Shown here one piece after another: positions 17,507-61,517 of a stretch of DNA of 64,000 bases (the stretch's first letter is position 1; every line of letters starts with the position of its first letter). The notes under the pieces are model-generated. The model worked only from the letters and a program-made list of their open reading frames with translations. It had not been told where the DNA came from and ran no database searches. The position numbers were made by a program, and so were the translations under genes. This DNA comes from an uncultured Kiritimatiellota bacterium (lineage in GTDB: Bacteria; Verrucomicrobiota; Kiritimatiellia; RFP12; DVOR01): assembly GCA_944389545.1 (NCBI GenBank), contig CALXMT010000010.1, positions 1-64,000 of the forward strand, in the 5' to 3' direction.

Positions 17507-17970
17507 TTGTCTGGAAGTTTGGAAGTTTGGAAGTTTGGAGGTTTAGAGGTTTGGCAGTTTAGCGGTTTGGAAGCTTGGTTCCCTTGGTGGGGCTCCGCCC
17601 CACACCCCATTACCCTCCGTCGCCCGCTTGCCGGGCGCTCCTGAATCTCCTGCATCTCCTGAATCTCCTGCATCTCCTGTTGGGGCGTCCTCCAGGCACG
17701 TCCGCAGGGCGTGCCTGCGGGTGCAGGGGGTGTTTCCCCCTGCTGGGGCGTGGGGCAGCGCCCCACATTCCAATCAGCTAATCAGCCAATCAGCTAATCA
17801 GCTAATCAGCTAATCAGCTAATCAGCTAATCAGCCAATTTCCCTTTGTGTCCTTTGCGAATCTTTGCGCCTTTGTGGGTGCTCGCGCAGCGTAATCCACT
17901 CTGGCAGTCCTGCGTGCGCTAGCACGCCCCAAATCTGCACGAATCTGCGAAATCTTCGGTCCCTTACACA
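17507..17970. repeat. Repeat-filled gap after the ribosomal cluster
   Basis: No gene is visible. In order: an 8-bp GGAAGTTT array (about 17512-17579), a 9-bp CTCCTGAAT/CTCCTGCAT array (about 17638-17681), hairpin-forming modules, a GGGGCGTGGGGCAGCGCCCC hairpin (17742-17761), an 8-bp AATCAGCT array (about 17772-17837), a CCTTTGTGT 9-bp tract (about 17839-17875) and an AATCTGCGA tract (about 17931-17957). The AATCAGCT array with the same hairpin before it and the same CTTTGTG tract after it recurs at about 27903-27985. Confidence 0.85.
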
Positions 17971-18008: not shown

Positions 18009-18293
18009 ATGAGAACGGTTATTGGGAAAGAGTCGGGGAAACCCATTGAATTGTATACGAAGGAAGAAGTCTTCGCGGATATCATCAACGATCCAGATTA
18101 TCTGAGGCGGGCGGCCGAAATCGATGCCGAGCTGGAGGCCGAGCAGGCCTTCTGGGCGAAGGCCAAGCGCGAGCTCCGCAAAATTGGCATAACCGGCAAA
18201 CTCGCCGAAGACATCCTCGACCGACTCTGGGAACTCGGCTACTACGAACACCAGACCGGCAAATCCGTTGCCGAATCCGCCCCCGCCGAGTAA
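18009..18293 (+). CDS. Hypothetical 94-aa protein
   Basis: I do not recognise this family. The protein is charged and probably helical: a Glu/Ala-rich central segment (IDAELEAEQAFWAKAKREL, about residues 38-56), then a compact region ending in DRLWELGYYEHQTG, and no membrane segment or signal peptide. AAAGGA lies upstream of ATG 18009. It has its own extended -10 promoter and its own terminator, so it is a single-gene unit. Its 3' end and terminator match those of rplQ, suggesting segmental copying or gene conversion between the two ends. Confidence 0.6.
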   Translation: MRTVIGKESGKPIELYTKEEVFADIINDPDYLRRAAEIDAELEAEQAFWAKAKRELRKIGITGKLAEDILDRLWELGYYEHQTGKSVAESAPAE

Positions 18294-18309: not shown

Positions 18310-18343
18310 AAAAGCCCCCGACCTTGCGGCCGGGGGCTTTTTT
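18310..18343 (+). terminator. Intrinsic terminator of the 94-aa gene
   Basis: AGCCCCCGACC (18313-18323) pairs with GGCCGGGGGCT (18328-18338) with one mismatch, followed by six T residues. Flanking bases CACGCGACAAAAGCCCCCGA and TTTTTTGTTGTCT are the same as in the rplQ terminator. Confidence 0.85.
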
Positions 18344-18372
18344 GTTGTCTCCGCACCTCTTCTTGGCCACCC

Positions 18373-18490
18373 TTAAACCCCTCTTCCCAGACCCTTAAGG
18401 GTTTCGGGTCGGACCACTATAGGGTCTCGACCCCGACCCCTATAGAGGTTGACCTCGGACCCTTATAGGGTCTCAGAAAGGGGCCTTAAG
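18373..18490. repeat. 23-bp periodic TATAG/TTAAG palindrome array
   Basis: Core tetramers fall at 18373 (TTAAA), 18395 (TTAAG), 18418, 18441, 18464 (TATAG) and 18486 (TTAAG): spacings of 22, 23, 23, 23 and 22. Each core is the centre of a short palindrome such as GACCCTTATAGGGTC. The array sits between convergent gene ends. The same family occurs at 45168-45290 and 59551-59630. The remainder of 18344-18596 shows nothing else. Confidence 0.8.
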
Positions 18491-18596: not shown

Positions 18597-20171
18597 CTAG
18601 ACGAGCGGCTTGGTGGCGGTGCCGGTGAGGCGGCGGGTCGCGCCGTCGAAGGAGAGGCCGATGAGATGGACCTCTTTGCCGGAGTGGCGATAGGGCTCGG
18701 CGTAACCCTTTTCTTTAATTTGGTCGATGGCCTCTTGAGGCGTGCCGTCGACCTTGAGCTCGAAGACGAAGACGCGTTCGGGCGTCTCGGCAACGAGATC
18801 TGCGCGGCCGTGGGACTGCCGATCCTCGGCGGTCACACGGAAGAACCCGCTGGCGGTCAGCAGGACATAGAGAATACGCTGGAAGGAGAACTCCTGCACG
18901 CGCTCCTCTTTTGGTCCGTAGGTGAGGTGGGTGTAGAGGTCGGAGAGGTTGCCAAAGAAGGTGGCGAAGTCGGCCTGCTTCAAGGCGCGGCAGGTGGCGT
19001 TGCGGTATTGGTCATCCTCTTTCTTGGTGAACTTTTGGATGAGTTGGGAGTTAAAGGCGCGGCGGACCTCTTCGTCCGGGATGCCCAGCGTAAAGACACC
19101 ATCTTGGAAATCTTTGATGGTAAGGTAACCGCTTTGATAGAGCATGGCGACGGGGCGGATGTTCTCCAGTCCACAGACGTCCAGATCATCCTCTGAAACG
19201 TCCTCAACGTTTTCGTAGTCCCTCTCGATAAGTTGATTGTTCGTGAAGTAGTTGATGACGGTGGAGGTCTGTCCGGAACGGCTCCACGTGCCGATGAAGG
19301 CGGGGTCGCAGGCGCCAAGGGTCTGGCCGATGGCGAAGGGATTGTAGACCTTGGTCGTGTTCCAGCGGGCGAAACGGTAGCCATTGAACCACCACCGGAG
19401 TTGCTCGCGGTAGTCTTCGTAAGAGAGGCCCATGACCTCGGCGTGGCGGTGCAGCGTCTTGCTGAAGTTAGCCTCCAGCTCCTCATCCGTGTAACCGAGG
19501 AGCGTGGCATAGCGGTCGTCCATCGTTAGGTCGATGAGGTTGTTCAACGTCGAAAAGATAGAGTCAGGCACATAGCGCGTGATGCCGGTCATCATCGAGA
19601 AGTGGATGTTGCCGACGTTGTTCTTGATTTCGCCACAGAAATTAATGAGCTCAGAACGAATTGTCTTGGCCCTGGCGACATCATTCAGCGCGGCATTGGT
19701 CGGCGCATCGTAGTCGTCGATGAGAATAACGACGCGTTTACCGCGGCCCTGCCTAAGGGAGCGGATGGCTCTGGCAAAGTTGTCATGGGGGAAAATCGCG
19801 TCATCCCACTTACATCCAGCCTCAATTAAGACCTTCCGGACATGGTTACGGAAATCACGCTCGAACGCCTCCAAGGTCTCCACATTGAAGCCCGAGAAGT
19901 TGAAATGGAGGATGGGATAGGACTCCCAAACGTAATCCATCTTGTCAATGGCGAGGCCCTTGAAGAGTTCGCGCTCACCGCGAAAAAGACACTCCAAGGT
20001 CGAGAGCATGAGCGTTTTACCGAAATGCTCTGGCCGCGAGATGAAGTAGAAGGCGTCGCCATATCGCGTAACGAGGGGATAGAGTAACGCCGTCTTATCT
20101 ACGTAACGATAGCCCTTCTTCCGCATGACGCGGAAGTCATAGGTCCCTTGCGCGATTTTCTCTTCTTCCAT
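18597..20171 (-). CDS. AAA-ATPase-like / PD-(D/E)XK nuclease family protein
   Basis: Matches the layout of the large family with an AAA-ATPase-like N-terminal domain (PF09820 type) and a C-terminal PD-(D/E)XK domain (PF08011 type), common in gut anaerobes and of unknown function. 524 aa, full length. P-loop-like SRPEHFGKTLMLSTL near residue 45-59, where relatives usually read RPRRFGK; Walker B-like VVILIDDYDAP near 145; nuclease-like HGRADLV and VFVFELKVDG near 465-480. Monocistronic, between a 23-bp array and a repeat-rich gap. Such genes are often mobile or multicopy. Confidence 0.85.
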   Translation of the reverse strand: MEEEKIAQGTYDFRVMRKKGYRYVDKTALLYPLVTRYGDAFYFISRPEHFGKTLMLSTLECLFRGERELFKGLAIDKMDYVWESYPILHFNFSGFNVETLEAFERDFRNHVRKVLIEAGCKWDDAIFPHDNFARAIRSLRQGRGKRVVILIDDYDAPTNAALNDVARAKTIRSELINFCGEIKNNVGNIHFSMMTGITRYVPDSIFSTLNNLIDLTMDDRYATLLGYTDEELEANFSKTLHRHAEVMGLSYEDYREQLRWWFNGYRFARWNTTKVYNPFAIGQTLGACDPAFIGTWSRSGQTSTVINYFTNNQLIERDYENVEDVSEDDLDVCGLENIRPVAMLYQSGYLTIKDFQDGVFTLGIPDEEVRRAFNSQLIQKFTKKEDDQYRNATCRALKQADFATFFGNLSDLYTHLTYGPKEERVQEFSFQRILYVLLTASGFFRVTAEDRQSHGRADLVAETPERVFVFELKVDGTPQEAIDQIKEKGYAEPYRHSGKEVHLIGLSFDGATRRLTGTATKPLV

Positions 20172-20753: not shown

Positions 20754-23700
20754 ATGGGCATGACGTTGGATGAGGTGTTGGCGCGCTTTCGTGAGGAGGC
20801 GCAGGGCGACAAGGCTGTGTTGGGAACCCGCTTCGAGCGCCTGGTGAAACGTCTGCTCACGCAATTGCCGCTCTATCGGACGCAGTTCTCCCGCGTCTGG
20901 CTCTGGTCGGAACTCAATCTGGGCCACGACACAGGCATCGACCTGGTCGCCGAAGACATCCACGGCGAACTCTACGGCATCCAGGCCAAGTGCTACGAAG
21001 ACGGCCACGTCGTCTCCAAGCCCGACATCGACACCTTCCTCTCCAAACTCGGCGAATACCTGCCCTTCGAGGGCGCCAAACGCACCTTCGCCCACGGCAT
21101 CATCTTCTCCACCACTGACGCCTGGGGCGACAACGCCGAGCGCACACTCGGCGACCGCCCCATCCCCGTGCAGGTGATGACCCTCTCGCGCCTACGCGCC
21201 CTCGAGGCCAACTGGGAGTCCCTCGCCGGCCTCACCGCCGGCCCCGCCGTCACCCCCAAGTCCCTCCGCGACTACCAGCAAGAGGCCCTCGAGGCCGCCG
21301 CCGCACACTATGCCACGCACGACCGCGGCAAACTCATCATGGCCTGCGGCACCGGCAAGACCTTCACCTCCCTGCGCCTCATCGTGCAAGAGACCGGCGG
21401 CAAGGGCCTCGTCCTCTTCCTCGTCCCCTCCATCGCCCTCCTCAACCAGACCCTCGTGGCCTGGTGCGACGACGCCGCCAAACCCCTCCACGCCGTCTGC
21501 GTCTGCTCCGACGCCCAGGCCAACCAGCGCATCAAGCGTGGCGAAGACGAACCCGAGGAAGACCCCAACGCCCTGGCCCTGCCCCCGACCACCCGCCCCG
21601 ACATCCTCGCCAAACGCATCCGTTACCTCCGCGAGAAATATCCCGACGCCCTCACCGTCGTCTTCTCCACCTATCAATCCATCGCCGTCATCGAGGAGGC
21701 CCAGCGCACCTACCTCGGCCGCGAGCACTTCGCCTTCGACTTCGCCGTCTGCGACGAGGCCCACCGCACCACCGGCGCCATCGCCAAGGAAGAGGAAGAA
21801 CCCGCCTTCACCTACATCCACGACGATGCCCACGTCCTCGCCCGCCGCCGCCTCTACATGACCGCCACCCCGCGCCTCTACGCCGAGTCCGCCAAGGTCA
21901 AAGCCAAAGAGCGCTCCATCGAGCTCTGCTCCATGGACGATCTGGCCCTCTACGGCAAGGAGATCTACCGCATCGGCTTCGGCACCGCCGTCGCCAAGGG
22001 TTGCCTGGCCGACTACAAGGTCCTCGTCCTCACCCTCCCCGAGGGTGAACTCCCCGAAGACTCCCCCTACGAACTGCTCACCGACGAGGAGCGCAAGGCC
22101 CTCGAAAGCCGCAACGACGACGGCCGCACCACCGCCGTCAAACTCTTGGGCTGCATCAACGCCCTCGCCAAACGCCTCAAGGACTCCCCTCTCCTCACCA
22201 CTGCCGATGGCGTGCCCGCCCGCCGCGCCGTCGCCTTCTGCCGCACCATCAAGACCTCCAAGGCCACCACCGCCCTCTTCCAAAAGTTCGCCGCCGACCC
22301 GCGCTTCAACACCCCGCTGCGCGTCGAGGCCCGCCACGTCGATGGCGAGATGGGCGCCCTCGCCCGCAACGATGCCCTCGCCTGGCTCAAGGCCGACGGC
22401 GGCCCCGCCGCCTGCCACCTCCTCACCAACGTCCGCTGCCTCTCCGAGGGTGTCGACGTTCCCTCGCTCGATGCCGTCCTCTTCCTCTCCAAGCGCAACT
22501 CCCAGATTGACGTCGTCCAGAGCGTGGGCCGCGTCATGCGCACCGCCCCCGGCAAGCGCTACGGCTACATCGTCATCCCCGTCGTCATCCCCGCGGACAA
22601 GGACCCCGAGAAAGAGCTCGACAACTCCGACACCTTCGGCGTCGTCTGGACCGTCCTCAACGCCCTCCGCGCCCACGACGACCGCTTCGAGGCCACCATC
22701 AACAAGCTCCGCTTCGACAAACCCTCCATGGGCGAGACCCTCCCCGGCCCCAACGACCCCATCGACTCCGCCGAGCCCCCCGCCATCACCATCTCCTCCG
22801 GCCTCAGCGGCGACGAGGAAGGCGTCTTCCCCAACACCCTCGCCGAACCCTCCGCCATCCAAGACTCCTTCGACCTCCGCTTCCCCGAGAAGATGGAGCA
22901 ATACCGCAACCTCCTCTACGGTCGCATCGTCAAACACTGCGGCAACCGCAAATACTTCGAACACTGGGCCGCCGAGGTCGCCGAAATCGCCAAGCGCCTG
23001 GCCGAAACCCTCCAGGCCCGCTGTGCCGCCGATCCCCGCGCCGCCGACACCTTCCGCCGCTTCCACGCCCTCCTCCAGACCGCCGTCTATTCCAACGTCT
23101 CGGAAGAGGATGCCCGCGTCATGCTCGTCCAGCAGCGCATCACCGGCCCCATCTTCGACACCCTCTTCGGCGGCAACGGCTTCACCGACCACAACCCCGT
23201 CTCCCAAGCCCTCGACCACGCCACCGACCTCCTCGCCGCCCTCGACACCGAGGAGGACCGCAAGACCCTCGACCGCTTCTACCAGGACGTCCGCATCCGC
23301 GTCGGCGACATCCAGAGCGCAGACGGTAAGCTCGATATTATCCGCACCCTCTACGACACCTTCTTCGCCACCGCCTTCAAGACCACCGTCGAGAAACTCG
23401 GCATCGTCTTCACCCCCATCGAGGTCGTTGACTTCATCCTCCGCTCCGCCGATGGCGCCCTGCGCAAATACTTCGGCAAGCGCCTCTCCGACAAAGACGT
23501 CCACATCCTCGACCCCTTCACCGGCACCGGCACCTTCATCGCCCGCCTCCTCCAGAAGGACCTCGGCCTCATCCGCGACGACGACCTCTACCGCAAATAC
23601 ACCCAAGAGCTCCACGCCAACGAAATCGTCCTCCTCTCCTACTATATCGCCGCCGTCAACATCGAAAACGTCTTCCACGACCGCGCCGGCCGCAAGGAGA

Positions 23701-25601
23701 AATACTCCGCCTTCCCCGGCATCGTCTTCGGCGACACCTTCCGGATGCGCGAGGTCAAACCCGACGACCTCCTCGACGACGAGGAACTCCGCCCCAACTC
23801 CGAGCGTATTCTCGCCCAGAACAAAGCCCCCATCTCCGTCATCGTCGGCAACCCGCCTTATTCCATTGGTCAAAAGTCCGCCAACGACAATGCCCAGAAC
23901 GAAAACTATCCATGGCTCAACGCGCGTATCGAAGAAACCTATGTGGCCAATTCCCCCGCCGCCAACAACAAAGCCCTCTATGACGCCTACATCGAGGCCT
24001 TTCGTTGGGCCTCCGACATCATTGAGAACCCGCGCGGCGGGATCCTCTGCTTCATCACCAACGGCGGGTGGCTTGACACCGGCTCAGGTGCCGGTTTCCG
24101 GAGATGCCTCGTCCGCGAGTTCGACGAAATCTACTGCTATAATCTCCGTGGGAATTGCAATACCTCTGGAGAAGTTCGTAAACGTGAGGGTGACGGTCTT
24201 TTCGGCGAGGGAAGCCGTACACCCATCTCCATCCTCCTCCTTGTCCGCCTGCCCGACGGCCAACACCACGGCAACGCCGCCATCCACTACCGCGACATCG
24301 GCGACTACAAGACCCGCGAGGAGAAACTCCACGACCTCATCATGTACCGCTCCTTCCTCTCCAAGGAATGGCTCGACGGCGCCCAGACCCTCTCCCCCGA
24401 CGCCCACGGCGACTGGATCAACCAACGCAACGACACCTTCGCCGCCTACATTCCCCTTGAGCCGGAGAAGAAGTTCATCGAAAAGGGACAATCGTTCTTC
24501 TCAGCCCAAGCCCTCGGCGTCGCCACCAATCGGGACGCTTACATCCAAAACTTCTCCAAGCAAGCGGTTCTGGACTTGCAAAAAGCCGCCATTGCTTTCT
24601 ACAACGATTGTGCCGAGCAACGCCAACAAGTCCAACAACCCCAACTCATCAATTGGACGCGGTCGCTTCGAGAACAGGTGGCCAAGGGCAAGACCTCCAC
24701 GTTTTCGGAACATGCCATGCGGTTATCCTCGTACCGCCCCTTCCAAAAGCAATGGCTCTATTTCGATGCGTTTTGGAATGAGGCTCGCGGCGTCATGCCC
24801 AAGCTCTTCCCCACGGGGGAGCGCGGGGAGAATGTGGTGATTTGTACTGGAGGGCTCGGAAGCACGAAAGCACGTACTTGCCTGATAACGGATGTTACGC
24901 CAGACCTCAATATGATGGACGCGGGAACACAATGTTTCCCGCTGTATTGGTACGAAGAGAAGGACGTCGACCTCTTCGGGAAGAAGACGTTGGTGCGGCA
25001 CGATGGCGTGAGCGACTGGATCCTACGTCGGGCGGAGCGGCAGTATGGCACGACCGTGACGAAGGAGGAAATCTTCTACTACGTCTACGGTTTCCTCCAT
25101 CAGCCGAACTATCGGGCGACCTTCGCGGCAGACCTCAAGAAGTCCCTGCCGCGCATCCCGCTGGTGGAACGCTACGACGACTTCAAGAAGACCTCCGACA
25201 TCGGGCGGCAGTTGGCCGCGCTCCACCTCAACTACGAGAATCTGGAGCCCTATCCGCTGGAGGAGAAGGGCGACTTCTCCGACACGCGGGTGAAGAAGAT
25301 GAAGTTCGGCGGGAAGAGCGGCAAAGACCGCTCCACCCTCATCGTGAACGGCACGCTGACCCTGTGCGACATCCCCGAAATGGCCTATCGCTACCAGGTG
25401 AACGGGCGCAGCCCCATCGACTGGGCCATCGACCGTTATCAAGAGCGCCAAGACGACAAGAGCGGCATCGTCAACGACCCCAACCTCTGGGCCCCGGACA
25501 ACCCCCGCTACATCCCCGACCTCATCAAGCGCCTCGTCACCCTCTCCGTCGAGTCCCTCGACCTCATCAACGAACTCCCCGCCTTTGAGGTAAGCGAATA
25601 G
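20754..25601 (+). CDS. Type ISP-like single-polypeptide restriction-modification enzyme
   Basis: One chain appears to carry the whole restriction-modification system: DNA cleavage, ATP-driven translocation, and N6-adenine methylation. Start ATG 20754 has AAGGAG 7 bases upstream; 1615 aa, close to known type ISP enzymes of about 1580-1600 aa. Order: Mrr-like PD-(D/E)XK nuclease (TGIDLVAED and GIQAK, about residues 59-79), SF2 helicase with P-loop ACGTGKT (about 198-204), DEAH (about 333), MTATPR and QSVGRVMR, a linker, then methyltransferase with LDPFTGTGTF (about 919) and NPPY (about 1033), and a C-terminal region expected to recognise DNA. Base composition drops in GC around 24.1-24.9 kb, near the methyltransferase/recognition junction, which may mark exchange of the specificity part. 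No separate methylase or specificity gene adjoins it. Confidence 0.9.
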   Translation: MGMTLDEVLARFREEAQGDKAVLGTRFERLVKRLLTQLPLYRTQFSRVWLWSELNLGHDTGIDLVAEDIHGELYGIQAKCYEDGHVVSKPDIDTFLSKLGEYLPFEGAKRTFAHGIIFSTTDAWGDNAERTLGDRPIPVQVMTLSRLRALEANWESLAGLTAGPAVTPKSLRDYQQEALEAAAAHYATHDRGKLIMACGTGKTFTSLRLIVQETGGKGLVLFLVPSIALLNQTLVAWCDDAAKPLHAVCVCSDAQANQRIKRGEDEPEEDPNALALPPTTRPDILAKRIRYLREKYPDALTVVFSTYQSIAVIEEAQRTYLGREHFAFDFAVCDEAHRTTGAIAKEEEEPAFTYIHDDAHVLARRRLYMTATPRLYAESAKVKAKERSIELCSMDDLALYGKEIYRIGFGTAVAKGCLADYKVLVLTLPEGELPEDSPYELLTDEERKALESRNDDGRTTAVKLLGCINALAKRLKDSPLLTTADGVPARRAVAFCRTIKTSKATTALFQKFAADPRFNTPLRVEARHVDGEMGALARNDALAWLKADGGPAACHLLTNVRCLSEGVDVPSLDAVLFLSKRNSQIDVVQSVGRVMRTAPGKRYGYIVIPVVIPADKDPEKELDNSDTFGVVWTVLNALRAHDDRFEATINKLRFDKPSMGETLPGPNDPIDSAEPPAITISSGLSGDEEGVFPNTLAEPSAIQDSFDLRFPEKMEQYRNLLYGRIVKHCGNRKYFEHWAAEVAEIAKRLAETLQARCAADPRAADTFRRFHALLQTAVYSNVSEEDARVMLVQQRITGPIFDTLFGGNGFTDHNPVSQALDHATDLLAALDTEEDRKTLDRFYQDVRIRVGDIQSADGKLDIIRTLYDTFFATAFKTTVEKLGIVFTPIEVVDFILRSADGALRKYFGKRLSDKDVHILDPFTGTGTFIARLLQKDLGLIRDDDLYRKYTQELHANEIVLLSYYIAAVNIENVFHDRAGRKEKYSAFPGIVFGDTFRMREVKPDDLLDDEELRPNSERILAQNKAPISVIVGNPPYSIGQKSANDNAQNENYPWLNARIEETYVANSPAANNKALYDAYIEAFRWASDIIENPRGGILCFITNGGWLDTGSGAGFRRCLVREFDEIYCYNLRGNCNTSGEVRKREGDGLFGEGSRTPISILLLVRLPDGQHHGNAAIHYRDIGDYKTREEKLHDLIMYRSFLSKEWLDGAQTLSPDAHGDWINQRNDTFAAYIPLEPEKKFIEKGQSFFSAQALGVATNRDAYIQNFSKQAVLDLQKAAIAFYNDCAEQRQQVQQPQLINWTRSLREQVAKGKTSTFSEHAMRLSSYRPFQKQWLYFDAFWNEARGVMPKLFPTGERGENVVICTGGLGSTKARTCLITDVTPDLNMMDAGTQCFPLYWYEEKDVDLFGKKTLVRHDGVSDWILRRAERQYGTTVTKEEIFYYVYGFLHQPNYRATFAADLKKSLPRIPLVERYDDFKKTSDIGRQLAALHLNYENLEPYPLEEKGDFSDTRVKKMKFGGKSGKDRSTLIVNGTLTLCDIPEMAYRYQVNGRSPIDWAIDRYQERQDDKSGIVNDPNLWAPDNPRYIPDLIKRLVTLSVESLDLINELPAFEVSE

Positions 25602-25912
25602 CGGCATCCTCCACTTTCTGCGGTCCCCATTCTGGCAGTCTTTACCCCAATACTGTCCGGGGAAAATGGAGACCGCAAAGACGCAACTCTTGCAGGAAAG
25701 ATGGGGCGCTAACGCCGGGCACACGGTCGTGCGCCCTCCCGCGCCCCACTTCCCTGCGCCAAAAGGGGATAAGGGAGTTTGGAAGTTTGATCTCTTCCGT
25801 GTAGCCTCCGTCGTTCTGTAAGGCACGTCGCAGACGTGCCTGCGGGTGCAGGGGAGATTGGAAGCTTGGAAGCTTAGAGGTTTGGAGGCTTGACTGTTTT
25901 ACTCACGCCCCA
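25602..25912. repeat. 115-bp dispersed repeat and 8-bp arrays
   Basis: No gene. 25651-25765 is a 115-bp element with about six differences from 43441-43555. Bases 25614-25631 are roughly inverted to 25663-25680, so a hairpin can form just after the restriction-modification gene. 8-bp GGAAGTTT/GGAAGCTT arrays lie at about 25776-25792 and 25857-25895. Confidence 0.75.
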
Positions 25913-25977
25913 TCCGTCGCGCGCTTGTCGCGCGTTCTGTTCTCTGTTCTCCGTTCTCCGGGCGCGAAGCGCCCTCC
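25913..25977. repeat. Cassette: hairpin, 7-bp array, hairpin
   Basis: A GTCGCGCGCTTGTCGCGCG hairpin, then heptads of TCTGTTC/TCCGTTC, then a GGGCGCGAAGCGCCC palindrome next to the rarA promoter. Same module order, in either orientation, at about 27333-27403, 27830-27897, 28205-28283, 32284-32353, 41489-41545 and 61470-61517. Confidence 0.85.
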
Positions 25978-25990
25978 CCCCTGTGGGGCG

Positions 25991-26001
25991 TGTGGTATAA
26001 T
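25991..26001 (+). promoter_or_regulatory. Promoter of rarA giving a probable leaderless mRNA
   Basis: TGTGG precedes a perfect TATAAT (25996-26001). Only six bases separate it from the ATG at 26008, so normal initiation spacing would place the transcript start at or next to the A of ATG. Confidence 0.5.
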
Positions 26002-26007
26002 GGGGGC

Positions 26008-27342
26008 ATGGACGATTTGTTTGAGCGTGAGGATGAGGGGCGGGAGGCCGAGCGGGTGGACCCGGCGAAGTTGGGGCCGTTGCCGGCGCGGATGCGGCCG
26101 CGTACCCTCGAGGATATCGTGGGGCAGGACCATCTGTTGGCGCCGGGACGTCTGTTGCGGCGCGTGATTGAGAGCGACCGTTTCACCAACCTCATCTTCT
26201 ATGGGCCGCCCGGCACCGGCAAGACCACGTTGGCCGAGGTCATCGCCCGCACCACGCATCGCCGTTTCGAGCGCACGAGCGGCGTCACGAGCAATGTCGC
26301 CCAGTTGCGCGCCGTCTGCGAGCGTGCCCGCGAGGTGCGCGGCCACATCGGGACGGTCCTCTTCGTGGACGAGATTCACCGTTTCAACAAGTCCCAGCAG
26401 GATGTCCTTCTGCCCTATATTGAGGATGGCACGGTGACGCTCATCGGCGCCACCACGCACAATCCCGGCATCTTCATCAACACCCCGCTCGTCTCCCGCT
26501 CGCTCGTCTTCGAGCTCCACGCCCTCGACGCGGCGGCCATCAAGACCGTCCTGGCCCGGGCCCTTGCCGACCGCGAGCGCGGCCTGGGCGATGCGAACGC
26601 CGTGCTTGAGCCCGAGGCCGCGGATTTCCTGGCGCAGGTCTGCGACGGCGATGCCCGCCGCGCCCTCACCGCGTTGGAAATCGCCGTGCGCTCCACCCCG
26701 CCCGGGGCCGACGGCCGCATTGTCGTCACGCCCGAGGTCATGGCCGAATGCGTCCAGCGCCGCGTCATCGCCTACGACAAGGACGAGGACCAGCACTACG
26801 ACACCATCTCCGCCTTCATCAAGTCCATCCGCGGTTCCGACCCCGACGCGGCGGTCTACTGGCTCGCCAAGATGCTCGAAGGCGGCGAGGACCCCCGCTT
26901 CATCGCGCGGCGACTCGTCATCTCGGCCTCCGAGGACATCGGCAACGCCGACCCGCGCGGACTGACCATCGCCGTGGCGGCCATGCAGGCCGTCGAGTTC
27001 GTGGGCATGCCCGAGGCGCGGATCAACCTCGCCCAGGCCACCACCTACCTCGCCTCCGCCCCGAAGTCCAACGCCGCCTACCTCGCGCTGGACGAGGCCG
27101 CCGCGGATGTCCGCTCCGGACGCGTCCAGCCCGTGCCCGAGCACCTCAAGAATGTCCATGTCAAGGCGGAGGGCAAAGCCGAGGCCCCGGCCTACAAATA
27201 TCCGCACGACTTCGCCGACACCGCCGTCGCCCAAGACTACCTCACCGTCCCCAAGACTTACTATCGCCCCAAACCCGCGGGTTACGAGGAGACCATCGCC
27301 AAGCGCCTCGCCTGGCTTAAAGCGAAGAAAGAGGGGCGCTGA
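26008..27342 (+). CDS. rarA: Replication-associated recombination protein A (RarA/MgsA) AAA+ ATPase
   Basis: AAA+ clamp-loader-like ATPase acting at stalled replication forks. 444 aa; the N terminus has RMRPRTLEDIVGQDHLL, Walker A GPPGTGKTT (about residues 66-74), Walker B VLFVDEIHRF (about 117-126), sensor region GATTHNP, and the MgsA C-terminal region with LVISASEDIGNADPRGL. Start ATG 26008 lies six bases past a TATAAT. The stop TGA at 27340-27342 is the loop of a repeat-cassette palindrome. Monocistronic. Confidence 0.93.
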   Translation: MDDLFEREDEGREAERVDPAKLGPLPARMRPRTLEDIVGQDHLLAPGRLLRRVIESDRFTNLIFYGPPGTGKTTLAEVIARTTHRRFERTSGVTSNVAQLRAVCERAREVRGHIGTVLFVDEIHRFNKSQQDVLLPYIEDGTVTLIGATTHNPGIFINTPLVSRSLVFELHALDAAAIKTVLARALADRERGLGDANAVLEPEAADFLAQVCDGDARRALTALEIAVRSTPPGADGRIVVTPEVMAECVQRRVIAYDKDEDQHYDTISAFIKSIRGSDPDAAVYWLAKMLEGGEDPRFIARRLVISASEDIGNADPRGLTIAVAAMQAVEFVGMPEARINLAQATTYLASAPKSNAAYLALDEAAADVRSGRVQPVPEHLKNVHVKAEGKAEAPAYKYPHDFADTAVAQDYLTVPKTYYRPKPAGYEETIAKRLAWLKAKKEGR

Positions 27343-28283
27343 CGCGCCCCAGAGAACAGAGAACGGAGAACAGAGAACGGAGCGCCCCTGCGGGGCGACG
27401 GGTGGGGCGCTGGGAGTGTGTGGAAGGTTTGCCCTGCGGGGCTGACACGAAGGTGCACGAAGGACCACAAAGGCACACGAAGACTGCCAGAATGGATTGG
27501 AAATCACAAAGGACACCGTGCAGGCGCGAAGCGACAAACCCTCCACGGCTAAGGACACCAAGGAAGGCAACGCAGGGGGCGGGCCGTGCGTGCGCGCAAG
27601 GCGCACGTCCGGCCCGGGGGCCTGGAGGGGCATGGAGGGCTTCGCACGCCATGCTTTGGTTTTTGGGAGTCCTCCGGCGTCAGCTTCGTCCTATATGTCC
27701 TATACGTCCTATATGTCCTACCGCGCTGTCCTTCTGGCACATCGCAGACGTGCCGAGGGTGCAGGGGCAATTGGAAGTTTGGAAGCTTAGAGGATTGGAG
27801 GCTTGGCTATTTTACCCATCGCCTCACCCGTCGCCCCGCAGGGGCGCTCTCTGTTCACTGTTCACTGTTTTCTGTTCTCTAGGGCGCGTTAGCGCCCTCC
27901 CCTGCCGGGGCGTGGGGCAGCGCCCCACATCCCAATCAGCCAATCAGCCAATCAGCTAAATTCTTTGTGTCCTTTGTGATTTCTAAAGACACACTGGCAG
28001 TCCTGCGTGCGCTAGCACGCCGCCCCCCTCTGTGTCCCTCTGTCCTCTCTGTGCTCCTCTGTGTCCTCCGTAATCTGCGGTAGCCGTGGAAGGTTTGGTG
28101 CTTCGCACCTGCACGCCCCACGCTGGCAGTCTTTGTGTATCTTCGTGGTTCTTCGTGAACCTTCGTGTCGGCCCCGCAGGGTAAACCTCCCACACTCTCC
28201 CAGCGCCTTCGCCGGTCGCGCGCTTGCCGCGCGCTCCGTTTTCCGTTTTCCGTTCTCCGTTCTCTGGGCGGCGTTAGCCGCCC
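27333..28283. repeat. Mosaic of repeat cassettes between convergent genes
   Basis: About 930 bases with no gene. From the rarA end inward: palindrome with the stop codon (27333-27350), heptads GGAGAAC, hairpin GCGCCCCTGCGGGGCG, a CTGGGAGTGTGTGG module, and a CACGAAGG 9-bp tract to about 27492. From the opposite gene inward (28283 to about 28116) the same order appears in mirror image. Between lie the GCCGTGGAAGGTTTGG module, a 9-bp GTCCTATAT array (27688-27720), an 8-bp array (about 27771-27807), another cassette (27830-27897) and AATCAGCC repeats (about 27932-27955). Confidence 0.8.
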
Positions 28284-31689: not shown

Positions 31690-32375
31690 ATGAAGGGAAG
31701 TTTGGAAGCTTGGAAGTTTGGATGCTTGGAGGAGCCCCAGAGGTTGGATCCCAAACTGCCGCCCTTGGCGGCGATGAAGCCGTAAGGGGCGCTTTGCGCC
31801 CCGGAGAACGGAGCGTGCAGCCCGAAGGGCAAACCTTCCACGGCCACGGAGAACGGAGAACAGAACGCGCGGCAAGTGCGCGACGGGCGGGGCCGCTGGG
31901 AGGGCGTGGGAGGTTTACCCTGCGGGACTGACACGAAGGACCACGGAGAACAAGGGGCGCTGACGCGCCCCGGAGAACGGAGCGTGCAGGCGCGAAGCGC
32001 CAAACCTTCCACGGCCACAGAGAACGGAGAACAGAACGCCCCTGCGGGCGACGGGCGGAGTGGTGAGCCAGGGCTTTTCGGCCTCATCGCCGCCAAGGGC
32101 GGCAGCCCAGGCTCCAATCTCTGTGGCTCCTCCAAGCCTCTAAACCTCTAAGCTTCCAAGCTTCCAATTGCACCTGCACCCCCGGCACGTCTGCGACGTG
32201 CCAGAAGGACAGCGCGGTAGGACATATAGGACGTATAGGACATATAGGACGACGGCTGACGCCGCTTGCACAGCGGCTTCTTCGTCGCGCGCTTGTCGCG
32301 CGCTCTCTGTTCTCGGTTCTCTGTTCTCCGTTCTCCAAGGCGCGCCAGCGCCTTCTCTTGCGCGGTGTGGGGTTG
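31690..32375. repeat. Repeat mosaic between the divergent rpiB-glyA and debranching-enzyme genes
   Basis: No gene. Contains an 8-bp GGAAGTTT/GGAAGCTT array (31694-31731), two long cassettes (31786-31886 and 31954-32055) whose heptad arrays are split by a GTGCAG...CCTTCCACGGCCAC insert, a CTGGGAGGGCGTGGGAGG module (about 31896-31930), another 8-bp array (about 32134-32168), a 9-bp AGGACATAT/AGGACGTAT array (32219-32250) and a third cassette (32284-32353). Confidence 0.85.
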
Positions 32376-41269: not shown

Positions 41270-41545
41270 AAAATCCCGAAAAAGTTATGAGAAGTAAAAG
41301 ACAGGTATTCTTACAAGGCGGCAAAAGAAATTTCCAAAAGGTGCATCGGCCATTCTCTCTTTTCGGCTAATCCGTCGCGCGCTTGCCGCGCGCTCCGTTC
41401 TCCGTGGCCGTGGGAGATTTGGCCCTCCGAACCTGCACGCGCTGTTCTCCGTTCTCTGGGCGCCAACGGCGCCCTTCCTTCCGGCCGACCCATCGCGCGC
41501 TTGCCGCGCGTTCTGTTCTCTGTTCTCCGTTCTCCGTTCTCTTTA
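41270..41545. repeat. Two repeat cassettes between nhaC and the topoisomerase gene
   Basis: Cassettes at about 41375-41475 and 41489-41545 contain CGCGCGCTTGCCGCGCG hairpins, TCCGTTC/TCTGTTC heptads and the inserted CCGTGGGAGATTTGG...CTGCACG module. The second abuts the topoisomerase stop codon at 41546. No gene. Confidence 0.8.
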
Positions 41546-43369
41546 TTAGAAATCCGTGTTGTCCACGAAGAGGTTGTCGAAGATGTAGCGGCGGCGCTCG
41601 GGGGTGTTCGAGCCCATCAGGAACTGCACGGTGTCCCACACGCGCGTGTCGTTGTGCACGTTCACGGGGGTCAGGCGGATGCCCTCGCCGATGAAGTCCT
41701 TGAACTCCTTGGCGTTGATTTCGCCCAAGCCTTTGAAGCGGGTGATCTCGGCCTTGGCGCCGCAGGCCTTGATGGCGGCCTCGCGCTCGGCGTCGTCGTA
41801 GCAATAGAAACTCTGCTTGGCGTTGCGCACGCGGAAGAGCGGGGTCTCCAGGATGAAGAGGCGGCCATCCTTGATGATGTGGTCGAAGAACCGCAGGAAG
41901 AAGGTGATGAGCAGGTTGCGGATGTGCAGGCCGTCGACATCCGCGTCCGTCGCCAGAATGACCTTGCCGTAGCGCAGGTTGTCCGGCGACTGCTCGATGC
42001 CCAGGCTCTTCACCAGGTCGTAGAACTCCTTGTTCTTGTAGATGGCGTCGCGCCGCTGGTCGCACACGTTGAGGGGCTTGCCGCGGAGCTTGAAGACGGC
42101 CTGCGTCTGGGTGTCGCGCGCGGTGCCCACGGTGCCGCCGGCGGACTTGCCCTCCACCAGGAAGATCATCGTGTCCTCACCCTTGCCCTTGGCCTTGTCC
42201 AGGTGGCGCTTGCAGTCGATCAGCTCCTCCACGCGCACGGCGCTCTGCTTGGCACGCTCGCGGATGGTCTTCTGCAGATCCTTGCTCGCTGCGCGCAGCT
42301 TCGCCGTCTCGTCGATCTTGTCGAGCAGACGCTGCGCCTCCTCGGGGTGACGGTGGAGCTCGTCCTCCACCACCTTCTTGATCTCGGCGACGAGCGCGCC
42401 GCGGATCTCGGGGTTGCCCAGCTTGTTCTTGGTCTGGCTCTCGAAGACGGGGTCCTTCAAGCGGATGGCCACGGCCGCAATGATGCCGTCGCGCGCCACG
42501 TCGCCGTCATAGCGCTTCTTCGAGAACTCCTGCACGCCGCGCAGGAAACCCTCCTTGAAGGCCGTCAAGTGCGTGCCGCCGTCGTTCGTATACTGGCCGT
42601 TGACGAAGGAGTAGTACTCCTCGCCCATGTGGTTGGTGTGCGTGAAGGCCACCTCGAGCATCTTCGAACGGAAGTGGAAGGGCCCATAGAGCTGGCCGCC
42701 GTCGGCCTCCGCCCCGATCAAATCCATCAGGCCGTTCTCAGAACGCACGGGGTCGCCGTTCAGCTCGATCGTCAGCCCCGCGTTCAGATAGGCATACATC
42801 TTCAAGCGCCGCACCACGTGCTCTTCGCGGAAGGCGAACTTCGGAAAGATCTCAATGTCTGGCAGGAAGCCCATGTAGGTCCCGTTCCGCTCCTTCGTCT
42901 CCCCCTCCTTGCGCTCCAACAGTTTCCCCTTCGCGAAGGTCGCCTCCACAAAGCGCCCCTCGCGCGTCGAACGCACCGTGAACCGCTCCGAGAGCGCGTT
43001 CACCGCCTTCGTGCCCACGCCGTTCATGCCCACCGAAAACTGAAACACGTCGTCGTTGTACTTGCCGCCCGTGTTCATCTCGCTCACGCACGCCACGACC
43101 TTTTCCAACGGGATGCCGCGCCCATAGTCGCGCACCGACACCTCGCCCGTCGCGTAATCCAGCTTCACCACGATACGCTTGCCGTAGCCCATGATGAACT
43201 CATCGATGGCGTTGTCCAGCACCTCCTTCAATAGGATATAGATGCCGTCCTCATACTGTGCGCCATCGCCCTTGCGCCCGATGTACATACCCGTGCGCAG
43301 GCGGATATGCTCCATCGGATCAAGGGTCTTGATGCTATCGGCTGTGTATTCGGCTGGGTTCTTCGACAT
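41546..43369 (-). CDS. parE: Type IIA DNA topoisomerase B subunit (ParE-like)
   Basis: ATPase subunit of topoisomerase IV or gyrase. 607 aa, short like ParE and without a gyrase-type insertion. GHKL ATPase motifs: EVLDNAIDEF, RDYGRGIPLEK and VGMNGVGTKAVNALS. TOPRIM: IFLVEGKSAGGT (the usual EGDSAGG has Lys in place of Asp) and ATDADVDGLHIRNLL. ATG 43369 has GAGGAG 5 bases upstream. No A subunit is adjacent. ParE versus GyrB is judged from length and absence of neighbours only. Confidence 0.88.
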   Translation of the reverse strand: MSKNPAEYTADSIKTLDPMEHIRLRTGMYIGRKGDGAQYEDGIYILLKEVLDNAIDEFIMGYGKRIVVKLDYATGEVSVRDYGRGIPLEKVVACVSEMNTGGKYNDDVFQFSVGMNGVGTKAVNALSERFTVRSTREGRFVEATFAKGKLLERKEGETKERNGTYMGFLPDIEIFPKFAFREEHVVRRLKMYAYLNAGLTIELNGDPVRSENGLMDLIGAEADGGQLYGPFHFRSKMLEVAFTHTNHMGEEYYSFVNGQYTNDGGTHLTAFKEGFLRGVQEFSKKRYDGDVARDGIIAAVAIRLKDPVFESQTKNKLGNPEIRGALVAEIKKVVEDELHRHPEEAQRLLDKIDETAKLRAASKDLQKTIRERAKQSAVRVEELIDCKRHLDKAKGKGEDTMIFLVEGKSAGGTVGTARDTQTQAVFKLRGKPLNVCDQRRDAIYKNKEFYDLVKSLGIEQSPDNLRYGKVILATDADVDGLHIRNLLITFFLRFFDHIIKDGRLFILETPLFRVRNAKQSFYCYDDAEREAAIKACGAKAEITRFKGLGEINAKEFKDFIGEGIRLTPVNVHNDTRVWDTVQFLMGSNTPERRRYIFDNLFVDNTDF

Positions 43370-45167: not shown

Positions 45168-45290
45168 TTATAGGGTCTCGGCTCCGACCACTATAGGGGG
45201 CGGCCTTGGACCCTTATAGGGTCTCGCCTCCGACCCCTATAGTGGTTGACCTCGGACCCTTATAGGGTCTCTGGGCGGATCCTATAGGGT
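45168..45290. repeat. 23-bp periodic TATAG palindrome array
   Basis: TATAG occurs at 45170, 45193, 45216, 45239, 45262 and 45284 within about one base: a 23-bp period with a final 22. Units read roughly TATAGGGTCTCGGCTCCGAC. Palindromes such as GACCCTTATAGGGTC and ACCCCTATAGTGGT are centred on the cores. It lies between convergent transcripts and was interrupted by the IS110 element. Confidence 0.85.
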
Positions 45291-59550: not shown

Positions 59551-59630
59551 CCCTATAGTGGTCCGAGGTCAACCACTATAGTGGTCGGAGGTGAGACCCT
59601 ATAGTGGTCCGTGCGCGACCCTTATAGGGT
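59551..59630. repeat. 23-bp periodic TATAG palindrome array
   Basis: TATAG cores at 59554, 59577, 59600 and 59623, exactly 23 apart. Includes the perfect palindrome ACCACTATAGTGGT and CCCTTATAGGGTT. Lies between two co-directional pilin genes, so it would be transcribed within the operon. Confidence 0.85.
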
Positions 59631-61425: not shown

Positions 61426-61469
61426 TTGGAATCTCCTTGATGAGGTGTGATGGAGGATGAGGATGTAGG

Positions 61470-61517
61470 GAGAACGGAAAACGGAGAACGGAGAACGGAA
61501 CGCCCCTACGGGGCGAC
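61470..61517. repeat. Cassette at the end of the importer ATPase gene
   Basis: Heptads GGAGAAC/GGAAAAC (about 61470-61499) adjoin a CGCCCCTACGGGGCG hairpin (61501-61515). The ATPase stop codon TAG (61508 to 61506) is in the hairpin, so the cassette supplies the end of the protein. Confidence 0.85.

Follow-up and report, generated by a model that had tools for sequence, protein, structure and literature searches.

Why should six short palindromes follow one another at an almost constant distance between two convergent genes, and is it their sequence or their spacing that matters? This question is raised by a locus in the window analyzed here, a stretch of 64,000 nucleotides from an uncultured Kiritimatiellota bacterium. 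An earlier note on this DNA had described a periodic palindrome array between facing genes, and this array is real and was correctly placed. It occupies positions 18372-18490, with cores CTTAAA (18372-18377), CTTAAG (18394-18399), CTATAG (18417-18422), CTATAG (18440-18445), TTATAG (18463-18468) and CTTAAG (18485-18490), giving successive steps of 22, 23, 23, 23 and 22 bp. The cores run TTAA-TTAA-TATA-TATA-TATA-TTAA, that is, TATA in the three inner ones and TTAA in the three outer ones, and each palindrome is imperfect and has a direction. When the minus strand is read, the segment 18394-18468 is a canonical four-site core with TATA, TATA, TATA and TTAA at 0, 23, 46 and 69, as defined by an alignment of 58 copies, and weaker outer sites flank it. 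On one side lies a plus-strand ORF of 94 aa without a Pfam family (18009-18293), separated from the array by an intrinsic terminator-like hairpin on the plus strand (18312-18345) that is kept in a congeneric genome according to sequence and alignment. On the other side, a minus-strand ORF (18597-20171) encodes a protein of an amplified family with AAA-ATPase_like and PDDEXK_9 domains (PF09820, PF08011).

The genome-wide search for TATAG cores that the note had proposed was carried out in the window's own genome (G000), where the pattern TATAG-N16-20-TATAG gave 214 + 200 matches (414), against 0 for a reversed-pattern control. In a lag scan, lag 23 was recorded in 27 scan windows of G000 and in 35 of G003, a genome of the same genus with mostly ~94-98% identity to G000 over the longest aligned stretches, while the other lags tested gave 0-5 each, including a single scan window for lag 22 in G000. 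Because of the 414 matches against none in the control, together with this lag spectrum, the pattern at 18372-18490 is not a product of chance. Nor is it limited to one locus, since the window itself contains two further arrays, one at 45168-45287 with six TATA cores at steps of 23, 23, 23, 23 and 22 bp, and one at 59552-59627 with four TATA cores at a 23-bp pitch (none of the three is assigned to a strand). An 851-kb sample of the window's genome held 34 arrays with at least three TATA cores, in which 103 of 114 steps were exactly 23 bp, and extrapolation from this sample gives a total of about 100 arrays per genome. When distances between neighboring cores of up to 75 bp were counted in 1.6 Mb of G000 and G003 with no chain imposed, 284 of 311 were exactly 23 bp and 9 were 22 bp. 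A search of G000 for equally spaced strict palindromes returned none, with criteria too stringent to be informative.

Alignment of the copies showed that the array is an ordered element. The sites follow the consensus GACC-N-CTATAG-N-GGTC and are nevertheless directional: one arm reads GGTCTC or TGGTT and the other TGGTC or GGGTC, and arms of the same type almost never share a core. Sites of 16 bp and spacers of 7 bp recur at ~100 loci, and most arrays keep a single direction throughout. The canonical polar element, derived from 58 copies, reads ccttTCT-GAGACCCTATAGTGGTC-CGAGGTC-AACCACTATAGTGGTC-GGGGTCG-AGACCCTATAGTGGTC-cgaccCG-AAACCCTTAAGGGTCC-rgaaagg-CCCTTTtGGGG, with conservation from about -45 to +95 relative to the first TATA. 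Its commonest form has four strong palindromes (TATA, TATA, TATA, TTAA) and weaker sites one step beyond; outside the array, degenerate sites stay in the 23-bp phase, and the information falls off outward in 23-bp waves. With TTAA sites counted, four strong sites were found in 45 of 106 arrays, which is the mode, and five in 32. The spacers of G000 and G003 are partly common to different copies (CGAGGTC, GGGGTCG), which shows that a whole element was copied. Array ends share a weak outward motif, AGAAAG, but within an element the ends are unlike each other.

The comparison with relatives bears directly on the claim that the spacing, rather than the whole sequence, is best conserved. G000 and G003 have many arrays of the TATA palindrome family and G005 has few; searches of most congeners and of 42 other genomes of the order found none. 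In the congener G013 (~80% identity over the rpoA region), arrays are built on a different palindrome, ACCCTATAGGGT, and in all eight well-matched arrays, defined by zero-mismatch hits throughout, the sites number exactly four and follow one another at precisely 23 bp; a few further, more degenerate arrays exist. The spacers of these arrays are hypervariable, with 0.1-0.4 bit at the central positions, and their identity is 0.41 within arrays versus 0.38 between arrays when one array with duplicated spacers is left out. Since the spacers are no more alike within than between arrays, the G013 arrays are not copies of a 23-bp unit. Further palindromes of G013 are arrayed at 22-23 bp (TTCATACCAGTATGAA, GGCTATAGCC and GGGTATACCC), and G016 and G002 contain 22-bp arrays around GATAT. 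Thus sequence-unrelated palindromes in congeners hold the 22-23 bp pitch, the period is retained in close relatives, and the claim that spacing is best conserved is upheld. On the sequence comparison, the pitch is kept across species and the sequence is not, which is the strongest evidence for a constraint on spacing itself, and the site number is conserved along with the pitch between G000/G003 and G013. Other repeats of similar period were seen in these genomes. In G016 the GATAT arrays at loci L281, L283, L284 and L349-L353 lie within a larger, MITE-like repeated element with conserved flanks (...AGCTGCTACTTGTTGATAACTTTTC). G013 has a GATTCAAAAGTGGGCGTAAACC-like 22-bp array in which a palindrome is not obvious (L277:7292, L339:10630 and L340:10836). 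G+C-rich hairpin repeats with tandem units of 22-23 bp (AAAGCGGCGTTAGCCGCCGTCC and GGGGCGCGTCAGCGCCTACTCAC), located near 6157 of L070 (G003) and at 10410-10471 of L287, have no sequence kinship with the TATA arrays.

Between G000 and G003, the array at 18372-18490 has an orthologue at G003 C3:14561-14664 with 93% identity. It forms a conserved island; the neighboring ORF and terminator are also kept, and the remaining intergenic DNA is unalignable. Other arrays are likewise shared by the two genomes, but at several orthologous positions the array is missing, is down to one site, or has a site count that differs by whole units (1, 2 or 4). In six orthologous pairs, substitution was 1.7% at the TATA positions, 10-18% at positions 3-4, and 18% in the flanks. 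These rates carry two reservations: some of the flanking sequence lacks true homology, and gene conversion could likewise keep the core constant. One exceptional array carries about ten changes despite near-identical flanks, which indicates that arrays can also evolve fast within allowed variants. Array density is about two-fold apart between closely related species, and this difference, together with the arrays absent or cut at orthologous positions, implies that single arrays are not essential. Likewise, the patchy distribution in the genus (many arrays in G000, G003 and G013, few in G005 and none found in most congeners) implies that the system is dispensable.

All 100 classified arrays are intergenic, none lying within a gene, and 40 of the 100 (40%) are in convergent gaps, compared with 82 of 490 gaps of at least 100 bp (17%); these gene-context figures come from a simple gene caller and are approximate. 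Along the chromosome, the coefficient of variation (CV) of the gaps between arrays was 0.55 in G000, versus 0.86-0.87 under a null of random choice among intergenic gaps (p about 0.01), and 0.49 in G003, versus about 1.0 (0.99), with none of 3000 nulls as even; this evenness was first noticed post hoc, during a test of random insertion. It was replicated on independent contigs of G003 with a CV of 0.59 versus 0.92 (p 0.0002) and with 4% of gaps below 6 kb versus 30% expected, using a uniform null, a hand-assembled list of pattern positions, in which some arrays are missed, and assumed lengths for contigs C11 and C13. None of seven control repeat families in the same gaps, scored in one or both genomes and some of them small, was significantly even. 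Neighboring arrays had the same orientation in 37 cases and the opposite orientation in 41 (14 and 13 below 12 kb), and evenness through deletion between close direct repeats was rejected because the two kinds of neighbors are equally common. Random placement with an exclusion of several kb fits the gaps, and this exclusion could represent either selection on spacing or insertion immunity.

We consider it an even chance that ~100 such arrays, this one included, serve as docking strips on the DNA for a putative protein that recognizes its sites as a sequence-specific dimer and lines up beside further dimers of the same kind. As a rule, four dimers would sit on the four palindromes at their spacing of 23 bp (2.2 helical turns), and looser contacts would reach one site position further on either side. 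We infer a protein that reads the sites, and its nature as an oligomer of dimers, from the lattice; side-by-side assembly is suggested because the pitch is fixed while the spacers are free, a certain site number is preferred, the weaker outer sites are in phase, and the palindromes are interchangeable. A swap of the palindrome between species with retention of the ruler would be expected if the recognition surface changes but the assembly geometry stays. The task may be of chromosome scale: domains of DNA might, for instance, be anchored or insulated at quiet intergenic places, once every 10-25 kb. Because the arrays are evenly spaced, intergenic and often between convergent genes, chromosome organization, in a manner that resembles supercoil barriers or gyrase-binding REP arrays, is the most economical role, and it is probably their role, along a chain that we infer to lead from lattice to protein to domain function. 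The earlier note had offered a bound oligomeric protein as one of two possibilities, and this one is favored by the fixed pitch and site number, the hypervariable spacers, the low core substitution and the even spacing, although no such protein was found. ParB/Noc-like paralogues were rejected as the binder, the copy number of ParB_N not following the arrays. A bolder version, which we put forward tentatively, is a sequence-encoded chromosome ruler: the genus would set marks on its chromosome quasi-regularly, about every 10-25 kb, each mark being a four-site array of 23-bp pitch to which a dedicated architectural protein complex docks, the recognition sequence being replaced between species while the geometry stays fixed. 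If the arrays are protein-bound, they would offer candidate domain boundaries whose positions on a bacterial chromosome are fixed and can be mapped, and the nature of bacterial supercoiling-domain barriers would become directly testable.

Against docking, insertions that are kept away from existing copies could also produce the evenness, and a mobile element is the main rival. According to this explanation, which we regard as possible but rather doubtful, the array is a selfish miniature element, a non-autonomous MITE- or REP-like repeat copied by a putative transposase that, as an oligomer, contacts sites at 23-bp intervals, and target immunity generates the evenness. A defined polar element in dozens of copies, its presence or absence in close relatives, its patchy distribution in the genus, the rarity of gaps shorter than 6 kb, which an exclusion zone would explain, and the random relative orientation of adjacent arrays are all consistent with it. 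MITEs have terminal inverted repeats and a target-site duplication at a clean empty site. However, the genome comparisons revealed neither a clean empty site nor a target duplication; where an array is missing, the surrounding intergenic DNA is wholly different. In addition, the G013 arrays share only palindromes and pitch and not the sequence between sites, contrary to what whole-element copying predicts. Furthermore, the one transposase family searched, the RAYT Y1 transposase (PF01797), had no match in G000, G003, G005 or G013 (drafts of 92-96% completeness), whereas control genomes were positive. If the arrays were mobile instead, they would represent a striking insertion exclusion without a known transposase.

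The other possibility raised earlier, regularly placed RNA hairpins, is disfavored. Tandem hairpins with a 23-nt pitch in 3' untranslated regions would terminate transcription or protect mRNA ends, and, when single-stranded, the palindromes do fold favorably (z of about -4 to -6.5). The arrays also favor convergent gaps and are closer to facing 3' ends (median 150 bp) than to facing 5' ends (306 bp). Nevertheless, no covariation was detected in G000/G003 within cores, between neighboring arms or one site apart, and none in G013 either; thus, no compensatory change supports pairing within cores or between neighboring arms. At 56 of 124 facing 3' ends, the locus at 18372-18490 among them, a crude detector found a terminator in the stretch from the gene to the array. 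Where genes lie in tandem, arrays point either way about equally often (by inspection), and their direction seems unrelated to gene strand. An end-to-end long hairpin, hinted at by the minimum free energy (MFE) of the 18372-18490 region, was rejected, because the ends of an element match less within than between elements, which makes this MFE a by-product of the repeated palindromes. On this evidence, we judge an RNA element improbable. A neutral satellite, in which a functionless palindromic 23-bp unit expands and contracts by replication slippage, would explain why orthologues differ by whole units (1, 2 or 4), but is just as improbable, given that G013 arrays keep four sites although their spacers are hypervariable, that the canonical element has ordered unit types, and that neither the even chromosomal spacing nor the low core substitution would be expected from slippage.

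Among known systems, REP/BIME/REPIN sequences are the closest in habit: they are species-specific, lie mostly downstream of genes or between convergent genes, and sometimes form regular arrays (PMC2817692, PMC3116915, PMC3733652), and REP arrays of E. coli are bound by DNA proteins such as gyrase (PMC1525189). Like them, the arrays described here are intergenic, high-copy and palindromic; unlike them, they have a strict 23-bp lattice, usually four sites and an even chromosomal spacing. REPs are defined by GTAG/CGTC tags (PMC3733652) and RAYT (Y1_Tnp) transposases (PMC2817692), and REPINs are inverted doublets that fold into one hairpin (PMC3116915). By inspection of the 58-copy consensus, no GTAG or CGTC tag is conserved at a palindrome end, and inverted doublets were not observed, the element ends mismatching and the units running mostly in one direction. 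Together with the lack of a Y1 transposase match in the four draft genomes, these results led us to reject the REP family.

The docking model has partial counterparts among DNA-binding proteins. Regulators of the Lrp/AsnC type bind as dimers to palindromes whose centers are two or three helical turns apart, form octamers and wrap ~100 bp of DNA (PMC2995911). The palindromes of the arrays are about two helical turns apart, which by analogy would suit a similar assembly, but Lrp sites are mainly in control regions, whereas the arrays are mostly away from promoters and number ~100 per genome. Supercoiling domain barriers, or topological insulators, split the chromosome into domains of at least 10 kb, and those of E. 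coli have a seemingly random placement and an unsettled identity (PMC6907758). The between-gene location of the arrays would suit such barriers, whereas, unlike in E. coli, the arrays are fixed DNA and evenly placed. Noc, SlmA and matS sites are palindromes of ~14-20 bp dispersed over the chromosome, mostly singly; the arrays are also dispersed palindromes, but are four-site lattices. CRISPR arrays consist of 24-48 bp repeats with regularly sized unique spacers and cas genes, and differ from the present 16-bp sites and 7-bp spacers, for which no Rfam CRISPR model matched at the gathering threshold. No Rfam family matches the arrays at threshold, and neither the tag nor the RAYT of REPs accompanies them. 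A phage or plasmid origin was rejected, with no match in either collection, and the matches in viral contigs and unrelated genomes are single and chance-like. The open-access literature yielded no paper on such repeats in Kiritimatiellota, and our claim of novelty is limited to that scope. Dispersed intergenic palindromes are familiar, but we know of none that sit on a strict 23-bp lattice, come preferably in fours, exchange their palindrome from species to species and are also placed evenly along the chromosome.

Several features of the neighborhood were recorded as well. The gene with AAA-ATPase_like and PDDEXK_9 domains has many copies in G000 and G003, with a tandem run at G003 C3:161-175 kb, and no match in several congeners. 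A tie between the arrays and this amplified gene was rejected (7 of 106 arrays versus 22 of 490 gaps, not significant). In the congener G006 (L363:4322-4785), the orthologue of the 94-aa ORF comes after a short ORF that by eye resembles a RelE/HigB-type toxin, and the ORF at 18009-18293 may be an orphan antitoxin here. Positions 20754-25601 of the window encode a single-chain Type ISP restriction-modification enzyme (Mrr-like nuclease, helicase, methylase and specificity domain), and a similar-looking gene at G000 C1:149783-154622 adjoins an array. Entire intergenic stretches of the window's genome are unlike those of close relatives. Finally, short tandem repeats with 7-, 8-, 9- and 10-bp units (GGAGAAC, AATCAGCT, TTGGAAGC, AGGACATAT and ACACGAAGGA) crowd its intergenic gaps, and in the window they are located at 17512-17578, 17638-17679, 17772-17838, 25858-28264, 31696-32335, 41512-41711 and 61439-61499.
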